DNA of 33,244 bases from contig JAUNUF010000021.1 in NCBI GenBank assembly GCA_030538315.1, forward strand, positions 1 to 33,244. The letters run 5' to 3'. The notes beneath the pieces are model-generated. The model made no database searches. It was not told the DNA's origin and saw nothing but the letters and a program-made list of their open reading frames with translations. Below, one piece after another: positions 1 through 28,200 of this stretch. Every line of letters starts with the position of its first letter. The stretch's first letter is position 1. Origin of the DNA: Propionibacteriaceae bacterium. Lineage in GTDB: Bacteria > Actinomycetota > Actinomycetes > Propionibacteriales > Propionibacteriaceae. The position numbers and the translations under genes are program-made.

Positions 1-43
1 GCGGATCGCCTGCGACGAAGGAGCAGCGCGATCCGACGAAGGG
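1..43 (+). repeat. Palindromic repeat copy, cut by window edge
   Basis: Almost identical to bases 3873-3915: one substitution in the first 46 bases. It ends in GACGAAGGG like the other copies of the family. Its expected CCCTGA start lies just before the window. It forms most of the short stretch upstream of glpK. Confidence 0.8.
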
Positions 44-69
44 CCGCCAAGCGTGCGACGCTAGGCGGT

Positions 70-1590
70 ATGACCGACCAGTTCATTCTCGCCATCGACC
101 AGGGCACCACCAGCACCCGGGCCATCGTGTTCGACCACAAGGGCACCGTCGTGTCCGTGGGCCAGCGGGAACATGAGCAGATCTTCCCGCGCGCCGGTTG
201 GGTGGAGCACGACCCCAAGGAGATCTGGGTCAACGTTCGTTCCGTGGTGGCAGATGCACTGAGCAAGGCCGAGCTCAACGCCTCGAGCATCGCGGCCTGC
301 GGCATCACCAACCAGCGTGAGACCACCGTCGTGTGGGACAAGAACACCGGCGAGCCCGTCTACAACGCCATCGTCTGGCAGGACACCCGCACCGCCAAGA
401 TCATCGAGGAACTCGGCGGCGACGAGGGCCAGGACAGGTACAAGGCCCGGGTGGGCCTGCCGCTTGCCACTTACTTCTGCGGGCCCAAGGTCAAGTGGAT
501 CCTGGACAACGTCGACGGCGCCCGCGAGCGCGCCGAAGCCGGCAGCCTCATCATGGGCACCATCGACACCTGGGTGCTGTGGAACATGACCGGCGGCGTC
601 AATGGAGGCGTGCACGTCACCGATGTGACCAACGCCTCGCGCACCATGCTGATGGATCTCGCCTCCCTCACCTGGGATGAGGAGATCGCTGCGGACATGA
701 CCATCCCGCCGACGATGCTGCCGGAGATCCGGAGTTCCTCCGAGGTCTACGGCCATGGCCGTCAGCAAGGCATGCTGGCGGGGGTGCCGATCTCGGGCAT
801 CCTGGGCGACCAGCAGGCGGCGACCTTCGGACAGGCCTGCTTCGAGGTTGGCATGGCCAAGAACACCTACGGCACCGGCAACTTCATGCTGCTCAACACG
901 GGTGAGGAGATCGTGCCCTCCAAGAACGGGCTGCTGACCACGGTGTGTTACAAGATCGGGGACAAGCCGGCCATCTACGCACTGGAGGGCTCCATCGCCG
1001 TGACGGGGTCGTTGGTCCAGTGGCTGCGCGACAACCTGCGGATGTTCGACTCCGCGCCGGAGGTCGAGGAGTTGGCCGCCACCGTCGAGGACAACGGCGG
1101 GGCCTACTTCGTCCCCGCGTTCTCCGGCCTGTTCGCCCCCTACTGGCGTGCGGATGCCCGCGGCGCCATCGTGGGCCTCACCCGCTTCGTCAACCGCGGC
1201 CACATTGCCCGCGCCGTGCTCGAATCCACCGCGTACCAAACCCGCGAGGTGCTGGACGCCATGGAGGCGGATTCTGGCGTGCAACTGGCTGAGCTCAAGG
1301 TCGACGGCGGCATGACCGCCAACGAAACCCTGATGCAGTTCCAGGCCGATCAGCTGGGGGTCGACGTGGTGCGCCCCGTCGTCGCGGAGACCACGGCGCT
1401 GGGCGCGGCCTACGCGGCCGGGATCGCCGTCGGCTTCTGGGAGGGCGAGCAGGACGTCATCGACAACTGGGCCGAGGGCAAGCGCTGGACGCCGCAGATG
1501 GACGAGGGCGAGCGGGCCGCGCTATACCGCAACTGGAAGAAGGCTGTCACGCGCACCTTTGATTGGGTGGACGAGGACGTGCAGGGATAA
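70..1590 (+). CDS. glpK: Glycerol kinase
   Basis: This cytosolic enzyme phosphorylates glycerol to glycerol 3-phosphate with ATP. At 506 residues it has the family's usual length. The N-terminal phosphate-binding motif [13 protein letters not shown] (about residues 10-22) starts the first FGGY lobe. The second lobe carries the conserved LLNTGEEIV and GLLTTVCYK stretches (about 277-296) and [13 protein letters not shown] (about 354-366). The ATG at 70 gives the standard N-terminus with the DQGTT motif right after it. No good ribosome binding site is seen; AGGCGG at 63-68 is too close to the start. A weak GACGCT at 57-62 could be a -10 box for a near-leaderless message. No glpF or glpD lies next to it in this window. 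The identification is secure. Confidence 0.97.
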
Positions 1591-1600
1591 CTGCCGGCAG

Positions 1601-1665
1601 TTCACCTGTGGAAAACCGCCACATCTTCGCCATATGAGCCGATGTGTCGATTTTCCAAAGGTGAA
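1601..1665. terminator. Long inverted repeat between glpK and ligD
   Basis: Bases 1601-1625 pair with 1641-1665 at 22 of 25 positions. The outer arms are TTCACCT and AGGTGAA, and the loop (1626-1640) contains CATATG. It starts 10 bases after the glpK stop, so a transcription terminator is the simplest reading. No T-tract follows, and the right arm covers the likely -35 region of ligD, so an operator role is also possible. It is AT-richer than its surroundings. Confidence 0.55.
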
Positions 1666-25238: not shown

Positions 25239-25244
25239 GAACCC

Positions 25245-25250
25245 ACGGTA
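25245..25250 (-). promoter_or_regulatory. Predicted -10 box of tail-anchored protein gene
   Basis: TACCGT lies 6 bases before the ATG at 25238, inside the 20-base gap after the carboxylase gene. No Shine-Dalgarno is visible. Confidence 0.45.
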
Positions 25251-25258
25251 GCCGCGGC

Positions 25259-28200
25259 CTAGCTCGCGGCGTGCCCCCGGATCACCTCGATGATGGCGGG
25301 GCGCAGTTCCGCAGGGGAAATGACCTTGTCCACCGAGCCCACCTCGACGGCGCGGTGAATCGAGTGCACGCCGTCGAACTCGGCGGCGACCTCTGAGATC
25401 TTCTCCGCGCGGACGGCTGCCCGGGCATCGGCGAGTTCCAACTGCAGCGCCGCGCGATCCTGCGGGGCCGCCGTCTGCAGGCGGGACTCCAACTCGCGGA
25501 CCCTCGCGTCGGCCGCCGTGCGCTTGGCGACGTCCCCCGCGAAGACCACTGCTGCGGCGGGAGCGCCGCCCAGCACGGAGGCGTAGGAACCCTCGATGGC
25601 CAGCACCGTCATGTTCTCGTTGAGTTGCTTAGAGAACACGACGAAGGCGCCGCCGTGGTAGCGCGAGATCACCACGAAGGCGATGGGACCCTCGAAGTTC
25701 ACGATCGCGCGCCCGATCTCCGCGCCATACTCCAACTGGAGGTTGCGCATGGATTCAGGCGAGCCGTCGAAGCCGGAGAGGTTGGCCAGCACCACCAGGG
25801 GGCGATTGCCCGAGGCGGCGTTGATGGCGCGCGCGGCCTTCTTCGAGGAGCGTGGGAACAGCGTGCCGGCCGTGAAGGTGTCCGGGCCGTCGGTGGGCGG
25901 GAAGCCCGCGCGGGGCACCGGCTTGGATTCGATGCCCAGCACGCTGACCGAATGCCCACCGATCCGCGCGTCCATCACGACGGCGGTCTCGGCCTCGGCC
26001 ATGCCCGCCCAACGTTCCACGCGCGGGTGGTCCTGGTCGCACACCGAAGCGATCACGGTGCGGATGTCGAAGGCCTTCTTCCGGTCCGGGTTGTGTTCCG
26101 CGGAAAAGATCTGGCCCACCGTCGCGAAGTCCGAGCCCTCGAGATGGTGCGGGTAATCCGAGATGTCGCGGTCATCGGCGTCCGTGGTGGGCGCCTTGCG
26201 GGGGCCGGTTTCGCCGTCGGCCACGTAGGTGTGGTCGTAGTGGCTGAGCAGGATGCCCATGGCAGCGCCCAGGTTGGGGGCCCAGTATTGCGCCTGCCCG
26301 TTGGGGCCCATCACGCGGTCGTAGCCACCGATGCCGAAGTTGTCCTCCGCGGAGACGCCGCCGGAGAAGTCCAGCGACTGCTTGCCGGTGAGCACCATCG
26401 CCGAATCCGGAGTCATCACGAGGATGCCCTTGGTGTGCATCAGCATGGTGGCCTCGGCGTTCCAGTACGGCTGGGCGCCCACGTTGATGCCAGCCACGAC
26501 GACGTTGATCTCGCCGCCGGCCTGCGTGAACTCGACGATGCGGCGCAGCGCCGCGGCCACCCAGTCCATGTTCTCGGTGCCGGATTCCATGGAGATCCGG
26601 GCGCCGGAGGACAGCGTGAACCATTCGACGGGGACGCCCATCTCCTCGGCGAGGTCGATGGCGGCGATCACCCGGGCGCACTCCGGCTCCGCGACGGCGC
26701 CGAGGCCCTTCGTCGGGTCGCCGGAGAGCACGATGCGGGTGATCCCCTCGGGGTGCAGCTCGGTGGGGGTGGTGACGCGGGCGCAGATGATCCCGGCAGA
26801 GTTGCGGCCTGGCGCGCGGTCCACCTCGACGAGGCGGCCGTTCTCGTCCAGGTCGAGCTCCACCAGGGAGCCGCCCTCGCCGGCGAGGCTGCCGGTGAGT
26901 TCGTAGGGGTAGACCAGGCCACGACGACGGGCGCGGAGTACCTTGCCGGCGTAGTCGTCGAGGGGCTTGAGGGGCTCCGACGGCGGCGGGGTCACCGTCG
27001 TCGTCACGCCCGCGCCAGGAACCGCATGGAACCGGACGGCGAGAGGCACCAGTTCGCTAGTTGGGCTACGTGTTTCGCTGGTTGAGCCGCCCCCCGCGAC
27101 GGAGTCGCCGGGGCGTGTCGAAACCACGAACCGCCCGTGGCACAGCACCTCTTCGATGCCCGCGCCGTCGGAGAGCGGGGTGATCCGGTCCTGCAGCGGC
27201 TTGATGTCGTCGACGCTTAGGTCGACGGGCGGCCACACGTAGACCCACACGTGGTTCATGTCCAGCTTCGAGCCGGCCGAGCCGCGCGCGGAACGGGTGC
27301 GACGGATGGCCTCGAGGCAGTTCTGCACGGCGCGCTCGGCGTGCGGCAGGCCGATCAGCTTGCCCTCGTCGTCGCGCACCACGCCCAACTGGCGCACCTG
27401 GGCCATGGCCACGAGACGGCGATCCTCGGGGTTGGACTTGGCCACGCACTCGTAGAGGAGCACGTCGGAGGGCGCGGGCAGGCGGGTGGTGTCGAACTCG
27501 CGCAGGCGCCACAGGTCCAGCCTGCGGCCGGACATGGGGTGCTCGCCGCGGATGCGCACGTCCTCCTCCACGCCGGGGAAGCGGAACGTGCGGTAATCCA
27601 CCGTGCCATCAGGCAGGCAGACGGCCACGGCCACGCGCTTGATGCGCGGGCTCAGGCCCCACGTTTCCAGGATGGCGCGCACCTCGTCGTCCGACGGCGC
27701 CTCCGGCCAGGAGACGTAGAACTCGGCGATGGCAGCATCGAACGGCGCAGCGGCAGCCTGCTCCTCGAGGAGGCGGTGCAGCGGGCCGCCGGCCGCGAAC
27801 TCGTCATGCGTGCCGACCGAGGCCACCAGCCGGCGAGGGACGCCGTCGAGCTCGTAGTCGGCCAACACGACGGCTCGCCCTTCGACCGATCGCGCTCCTC
27901 CTTCGTCGGAGGCGCTCGGCTCAGGGAGCGGAAGGGTGAGCCGGTGCACGTTCGTCAGCCCGTAGTCGGCGTAGTACTTGTGCAGCAGCACCTCGAGCAT
28001 GGGCTCGTGCGAGGGCACGCCCTGCGCGAGGCGCGAGGCCAGGTAGTTGGCCGTCCACTCGTGCACGCCGGCCAGCTTGACGATGCGTTCGCCGTAGTCA
28101 ACGGCCTGCGGGTTGGCCACCAGGGCGTCCAGCTCGGAGCCGAAGCCAGCGAGGATCTCGGCTCGTTCGGAATCCACCTGCGGCTGGTCGAACCAGCGGA

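Follow-up and report, generated by a model that had tools for sequence, protein, structure and literature searches.

A high-copy palindromic repeat of Tessaracoccus and a small GIY-YIG nuclease as its candidate partner

Repetitive extragenic palindromic (REP) sequences of the GTAG type are tagged hairpin repeats that, together with the RAYT transposase (TnpAREP), make up the REPtron, in which the enzyme gene is bracketed by the genome's own repeats; the passages of PMC6006769 on such systems also describe repeats that stand without their enzyme, for which loss of the tnpAREP gene is suspected. CGTC REPs, one of two REP super-families, apparently lack a dedicated transposase, and the sections of Di Nocera et al. 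2013 (PMC3733652) that deal with them report no enzyme for them. Those sections record in-frame REPs in several phyla, equate the Rickettsia palindromic elements RPE-4 and RPE-6 of R. conorii with CGTC REPs and mention untagged REP-like sequences of M. tuberculosis; the word actinobacteria is not in the paper's main text. REPs of actinomycetes are tabulated in PMC12306157, whose main text contains neither "transposase" nor "endonuclease". Here we describe a REP-like element with a TGAGC core near one end and GWCGAA (GTCGAA or GACGAA) near the other, eight copies of which lie in a 33,244-nucleotide (nt) stretch of DNA (the window), the entire contig C121 (JAUNUF010000021.1) of a Tessaracoccus draft genome (the home genome; 2.90 megabases (Mb), 204 contigs, 95.9% complete), and we argue that a small nuclease of the GIY-YIG type is probably its partner.

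The Tessaracoccus element shares with REPs in general its high copy number, short length, palindromic symmetry, mainly extragenic position and conserved hairpin. CGTC REPs (including RPE-4, RPE-6 and Neisseria dRS3) are likewise short high-copy palindromes, mostly intergenic near 3′ ends with some copies in frame, and likewise have no linked Y1 transposase (in Tessaracoccus, as judged in the home genome). They differ in having a CGTC (or TGTC/CCTC) tag, a stem of 8-9 base pairs (bp) and a loop of 4-5 nt, whereas in the Tessaracoccus element, itself longer, the stem is extended and bulged, the loop is a triloop, the tag is (C)(T/C)GGT and the TGAGC/GWCGAA core contains tandem G.A steps. Unlike GTAG REPs associated with RAYT, the Tessaracoccus repeats have flanks without a conserved GTAG, and a search for Y1_Tnp (PF01797) in the home genome gave 0 matches, the same profile being positive in 5 of 14 control genomes. 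The gene linked to the repeats instead encodes a GIY-YIG nuclease, which has another fold and for which strand joining is, to our knowledge, not known.

On the element strand the hairpin rises from a foot of CCC/GGG or GGT/ACC; two tandem G.A steps enclose a covarying arm, and the loop is usually a GNA triloop. The opposite strand would carry T.C steps, so that the fold tells the strands apart. In DNA hairpins, tandem G.A pairs and GNA triloops are stable elements. The commonest length of the CCC/GGG form in Tessaracoccus is 49 nt, and in 48 distinct copies of that length pairs 5-45 and 6-44 are invariably G.A and A.G, the inner pairs 20-28 and 21-27 occur in 48 and 47 copies, and the loop is GNA in 46. 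Pairing of the arm is maintained through compensatory changes: within the varying pairs of these 48 copies, 450 of 528 cells are Watson-Crick, a figure that in shuffled sets is 277 on average and never exceeds 302, the shuffles ignoring kinship among copies and the structure being drawn from these same sequences. As for the tag, GGT stands directly before the foot in 97 of 107 CCC/TCC copies and CT before it in 21 of 24 GGT copies; it often reads CTGGT or CGCT. When the seven complete window copies were folded with a program that scores tandem G.A pairs and GNA triloops as open loops, three surpassed all but 1 of 200 shuffles and two more all but 10 and 13, and the copies starting at 1909 and 21683 were not distinct from shuffles.

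Searches with both consensus forms, a check proposed in the preliminary description, found the element genome-wide. The home genome holds 92 matches of CCCTGAGCN{10,40}GACGAAGGG, 103 exact CCCTGAGC...GWCGAAGGG copies (pattern CCCTGAGCN{12,41}GWCGAAGGG) and 23 copies of the GGTTGAGC form (pattern GGTTGAGCN{6,36}GWCGAAACC), each against 0 for the reversed pattern. A survey rule requiring TGAGC, a G(A/T)CGAA no more than about 60 nt further on and a foot with three paired bases returned 39 copies in the first 0.77 Mb against 1 in the reversed control. Chance origin of the repeats is excluded by these reversed-pattern controls.

Seven genes of the home genome have copies close on both sides, and one of them (contig C55:4547-5053; PF01541) encodes a small GIY-YIG nuclease. 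Three copies lie upstream of this gene and two downstream, the first downstream copy overlapping its 3′ end. The domain matches its nearest solved relatives, the single-domain UPF0213 proteins 1zg2 (E 1.3e-14) and 1ywl (E 1.1e-7), over nearly its whole length. In a comparison set of 147 genomes of the host's taxonomic family, the small domain was found in 28, with an E value no higher than 4e-15 in 22. Taking 24 of the 30 GIY-YIG loci in this set (the six weakest were left out), we found that 15 carry 92 copies of the repeat in 46 kilobases (kb). As controls, 29 LigD or ligase loci carry 1 copy in 137 kb, and among 25 loci with other matches to the GIY-YIG domain, most of them in long UvrC-like frames, there is 1 copy in 80 kb. 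The copies nearest to the small gene are inverted at 12 of the 15 loci, with the GWCGAA end facing the gene.

The form of the flanking repeats generally follows the genome. The 15 loci come from 13 genomes, and the ten in which CCC/GGG copies flank the gene hold 22-103 matches of that form genome-wide; the three with only other flanking forms (G002, G024, G050) have 0 CCC/GGG matches. A CGT/ACG form flanks the gene in G016 (202 matches) and G024 (8) and is found 0-2 times in nine other genomes searched. In genome G135, two GIY-YIG genes are flanked by different forms (CCC/GGG and CGC/GCG). Small single-domain GIY-YIG genes are bracketed by such repeats, both within the family and outside it, and, in the cases checked, mostly by the genome's abundant form. 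As a separate observation, the C-terminal tails of the GIY-YIG proteins at five loci (L320, L326, L327, L333 and L348) seem to run into the flanking repeats (as in ...PSTSSGN and ...QRFDKLSARNPAG).

The linkage also emerges from a test that uses no motif and scores 14-mers that recur within 500 bp, a side being counted when they cover at least 20 nt of it. Repeats were present on both sides at 29 of 54 GIY-YIG loci of Actinomycetota against 0 of 82 LigD, CysS and ArgD loci, and on either side at 37 of 54 against 8 of 82; five of 59 GIY-YIG loci, in which the gene was not found by motif, and controls shorter than 3600 nt were left out (82 of 87 controls kept). The phylum-wide loci have other palindromes, for example GGTCTCGACACG...CTACTCGACC and GTCATTCCGTGCG...CACGGAATCC. 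On plasmid records from other bacteria, 12 of 22 GIY-YIG loci were bracketed against 1 of 44 control pseudo-genes set within these loci, and at least one side carried repeats in 16 of 22 against 6 of 44, in a sample of 10 of 34 and 12 of 33 records that were chosen for variety, not randomly, and that left out, for example, Legionella, Listeria, Klebsiella and Xanthomonas.

Outside Actinomycetota the repeats beside GIY-YIG genes include CCGTCATCCTCGGGCTTGACCCGAGGATCCA in Rhizobiaceae, GCCGTCATCCCCGCGAAGGCGGGGATCCAGGC in Azospirillum, CGTCGCCCCGTGCTTGACACGGGGCT in Novosphingobium and CGTCATTCCCGCGCAGGCGGGAATC in Neisseria, all of which, by the look of their letters, appear to be of the CGTC type; some of the repeats found beside such genes begin CGTCAT. 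These CGTC-looking repeats are a further point of likeness between the CGTC REPs and the Tessaracoccus element. Two plasmid loci may be recorded for their neighbours. On Planktothrix agardhii plasmid p1 a GIY-YIG gene flanked densely by repeats on either side (L385 1489-1773) has an MmeI restriction-modification gene as one neighbour and drmA, a DISARM gene, as the other, and on Azospirillum lipoferum AZO_p3 (L391 1486-1779) one with CGTC-looking repeats on both sides stands between sufB and sufC.

Taken as a whole, we consider it fairly probable that the repeats are a REP-type palindromic element and that the small GIY-YIG nuclease is its partner, in a REPtron with a GIY-YIG enzyme in place of RAYT. 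We infer that the nuclease mobilises the repeats. Its substrate would be the hairpin in single-stranded or cruciform DNA, which it would cut close to the foot, after which repair or end joining would insert the hairpin elsewhere. Copies landing within genes would survive if they add a multiple of three bases, hold no stop and fall in a tolerant place, leaving in-frame peptides, and many other copies would settle directly after stop codons. A broader proposal, to which we give slightly less than even chances, is that small GIY-YIG nucleases are the missing partners of both the TGAGC/GWCGAA repeats of actinobacteria and the CGTC REPs, and by extension those of Neisseria and Rickettsia, working through hairpin cutting with insertion by host repair, unlike RAYT. 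What is new here is the bracketing of a small GIY-YIG nuclease gene by repeats in a home genome with no Y1 transposase, in-frame REPs being already known from the relevant sections of PMC3733652. Genes bracketed in this way in several phyla provide a concrete and cheaply testable candidate enzyme for CGTC REPs; if the proposal is true, there would be a second REP partner system, with a chemistry other than that of RAYT, and the in-frame peptides would be explained as by-products of spread. In open-licence papers no literature link between small GIY-YIG proteins and REP repeats was found among the matches listed, and neither GIY-YIG together with "repetitive extragenic palindromic" nor the repeat's own letters was found there; PMC9465073 and PMC12455944 contain both GIY-YIG and repeat words, in passages on unrelated matters.

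Several observations weigh against a partnership of nuclease and repeat. GIY-YIG enzymes are hydrolases for which we know of no joining activity, and alone they cannot insert anything. Nine of the 24 loci in the family set are without any copy of this repeat, and at the GIY-YIG locus of the home genome itself the nearest flanking copies are in the same orientation (+,+), not inverted. In G024, 5 of the 8 CGT/ACG matches are at the GIY-YIG locus, so that this form is not abundant elsewhere. If genomes with at least five matches of CCCTGAGCN{12,41}GWCGAAGGG are called repeat-rich, 10 of 20 repeat-rich genomes, including the richest (G074), have no close match to the small domain, and in a PF01541 search of these ten the other GIY-YIG matches were not near repeats. 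Conversely, 12 genomes have the gene and fewer than five pattern matches, several of them with other repeats beside it. The gene's presence in 10 of 20 repeat-rich genomes against 12 of 127 others is partly phylogenetic (the gene was counted at E 4e-15 or better, which gives the 22 genomes above and scores the six weaker of the 28 as absent). In the motif-free test, both-side repeats were seen at 22 of 27 family loci against 7 of 27 phylum-wide loci, and the latter figure is low. Repeat-rich genomes without the gene could reflect gene loss, or the gene could be a passenger.

The second possibility belongs to the strongest rival explanation, in which these are ordinary REPs spread by a RAYT or other transposase since lost, the GIY-YIG gene being a passenger or a homing endonuclease gene with a tendency to land in REP clusters because these make harmless targets. 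Examples of REPs that lack their enzyme exist, and the passages of PMC6006769 cited above suspect that the gene was lost there. The absence of the gene from half of the repeat-rich genomes fits the same account, as does the lack of a joining activity that we know of in GIY-YIG enzymes. It accords less well with the lack of Y1_Tnp in the home genome, with inverted bracketing at 12 of 15 loci, with the different forms at the two GIY-YIG genes of G135, and with a flanking form that is the abundant form in ten of the 13 genomes with flanking copies; we regard it as unlikely, at something over one chance in five.

The placement of copies bears on a second alternative, according to which the repeats are maintained for a function in RNA where genes end, such as termination or protection of the mRNA 3′ end, besides providing stop codons, the coding copies being accidental. 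The survey rule was applied to 1.08 Mb of the home genome, of which long stretches made up about 70% and segments picked around known copies the remainder, and gave 145 copies, or 139 once overlaps were removed. In favour of such a function, copies stand in 65 relations to gene ends at -8 to 40 nt from the gene 3′ end, the copy running with the gene in 42 and opposite to it in 23 (p 0.025), and 6 copies supply a gene with its TGA stop codon. This direction bias is weak, coding copies run both ways (13 along and 10 against the gene among the 23 in-frame copies scored by codon usage), the repeats are patchy among close relatives, and the GIY-YIG linkage would go unexplained; we hold this alternative to be quite improbable, at about half the weight of the lost-enzyme account. 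Among the 139 copies, 20 are no more than 60 nt away from a contig terminus in a count that covered every contig start but the far ends of eleven contigs only, from which it appears that the element breaks assembly and that the true copy number is probably higher.

In frame are 26 of the 139 copies: 23 identified by codon usage on both sides, the pair in the oxidase gene of the window and one further copy in an Lhr gene. Since about 88% of the surveyed sequence is coding, as estimated with a simple gene caller, copies are strongly depleted inside genes, and the coding copies, being a minority, look like tolerated landings. Three candidates (C59:11611, C39:36906 and C198:3049) were set aside as likely chance matches, with no tag and a poor palindrome, which leaves 23 credible in-frame copies spread over 17 proteins; C6:78751 fell under the in-frame cut-off and was uncounted. 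The hosts are CysS, GlyRS, ThrC, ArgD, CbiG-CobJ (two copies), a MobA-like protein, a MenE-like ligase, a glycosyltransferase, an E2 acyltransferase, a prolyl oligopeptidase, an Lhr helicase (three copies), an ABC exporter (two copies), a TetR-like protein, an MFS protein and the products of three window genes (five copies together), and their functions are unrelated. In the Lhr-type helicase gene (L242:95-4399, minus strand), one of the three copies is below the automatic cut-off. The preliminary description made in-frame use its main point; that use is real, but coding copies are a minority, and the absence of a Y1 transposase together with the GIY-YIG bracketing stands out more.

Alignments with orthologues indicate that copies occupy sites that are otherwise empty, some of them in frame within genes. 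The 16-residue insert of the window's LigD-like protein is absent from 22 of 22 orthologues spanning the site (23 loci, one not covering it), and a 14-residue insert in ArgD of the home genome from 28 of 28 (29 loci, one not covering it). In the window's carboxylase, the 16-residue insert at 27878-27926 is absent from 80 of 80 orthologues and the insert at 27079-27126 from 79 of 80. The exception is T. massiliensis (L061), which has at the equivalent position a longer in-frame insert, apparently made of two other copies, and the carboxylase linker inserts look like independent landings in one linker. The ThrC insert is absent from the Protein Data Bank structure 3v7n. The CysS insert sits in a variable linker, where shorter orthologues are weak evidence, and the alignment of GlyRS with 7lu4 is not clear at the insert. 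No target-site rule emerged from the empty-site comparison. CysS, GlyRS, ThrC and ArgD with inserts form a set for measuring how far proteins tolerate insertion.

Like RPE-1 and other Rickettsia palindromic elements, the Tessaracoccus element is a palindromic insert that occurs in frame within many unrelated proteins as well as in intergenic DNA; it differs in its GC-rich actinobacterial host, in using both directions and in having most copies outside genes, and the two are likened by description, not by sequence. The resemblance, drawn already in the preliminary description, is borne out by orthologues that lack the peptides and by genome counts above control, and is weakened in that in-frame use is not special to Rickettsia (as the relevant sections of PMC3733652 make clear). 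That the in-frame peptides are themselves useful and selected is very improbable: nearly the same peptide (LVEPASSTSSVET and LVEPASSTSGVET) does occur in unrelated proteins, but a shared reading frame of like DNA would yield like peptides anyway, the orthologues lack them (22/22, 80/80, 79/80 and 28/28), the host functions are unrelated, and both directions are used.

Within the window, a scan with Pfam and NCBIfam identified GlpK, the LigD-like protein, MurJ and the carboxylase fusion. All eight copies were re-read and agree in sequence and position with the preliminary description, and the five attributed there to coding sequence keep the frame in the LigD-like gene (one), the oxidase gene (two) and the carboxylase gene (two). 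The copy at 1-43 (plus strand), of the CCC/GGG form, is missing its first bases because the contig begins within it, and lies upstream of glpK, the glycerol kinase gene (70-1590, plus strand; NF000756 / TIGR01311). The LigD-like gene (1683-3872, plus strand) encodes a primase-polymerase and ligase whose nearest match in the family genomes is in G119 (88%). Its in-frame copy at 1909-1952 (plus strand), the source of the 16-residue insert, is a decayed or atypical family member, because its interior is irregular despite exact ends, its folding is at shuffle level (z -0.05) and the usual 5′ tag is missing. The stop codon of this gene, TGA, is supplied by the next copy, a CCC/GGG form at 3867-3915 (plus strand) with CTGGT before it and CCGGCAAGC after it; the LigD-like gene of T. 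massiliensis has its own TGA at this site, followed by a different copy. An intergenic CCC/GGG copy at 3971-4019 (minus strand) is oriented opposite to the one at 3867-3915.

The oxidase gene (21124-22575, plus strand, start codon uncertain; PF01565, PF04030) encodes a protein resembling flavin adenine dinucleotide-binding D-arabinono-1,4-lactone oxidase and holds two in-frame copies of the GGT/ACC form, one at 21598-21649 (minus strand) against the gene and one at 21683-21720 (plus strand) along it. The latter folds no better than shuffles (z -0.68) and encodes the peptide LVEPASSTSGVET, which nearly matches that of the CysS copy. The alignment of the oxidase with its nearest solved relative, 2vfr, is interrupted from residue 155 to residue 203 (150 and 156 of 2vfr), a segment that contains both inserts. 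An intergenic position for 21598-21720 is ruled out, as Pfam places the oxidase gene on the plus strand there; an overlapping open reading frame on the minus strand (21763-22881) gave no Pfam match at E values of 1 or below. The carboxylase gene (25259-30841, minus strand) encodes a 1860-residue acyl-CoA carboxylase fusion whose nearest relative is that of T. massiliensis (84%), a match on which the assignment of the host to Tessaracoccus is based. Its two in-frame copies are a GGT/ACC form at 27079-27126 (plus strand), against the gene, and a CCC/GGG form at 27878-27926 (minus strand), along it.

The CCC/GGG pattern is matched in 38 of the 147 family genomes, with at least five matches in 20 and a maximum of 181 in G074, and even among close relatives their distribution is very patchy. 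Several relatives carry the element chiefly as the 19-mer CCCTGAGC(C/T)TGTCGAAGGG, of which the Tessaracoccus copies are a long-armed version. Pattern counts in such genomes are lower bounds, since CCCTGAGCN{12,41}GWCGAAGGG demands 12-41 bases between the ends and therefore misses single 19-mers, counting only neighbouring pairs in the short-form relatives. A LigD-like match is found in 20 of 20 repeat-rich genomes against 79 of 127 others (p 0.0002), an association that would fit a role for end joining but is confounded by phylogeny and genome reduction. Four tandem-like units spaced 24 and 36 nt apart were also seen at 5883-6002 of the window, within the gene at 4049-7903.

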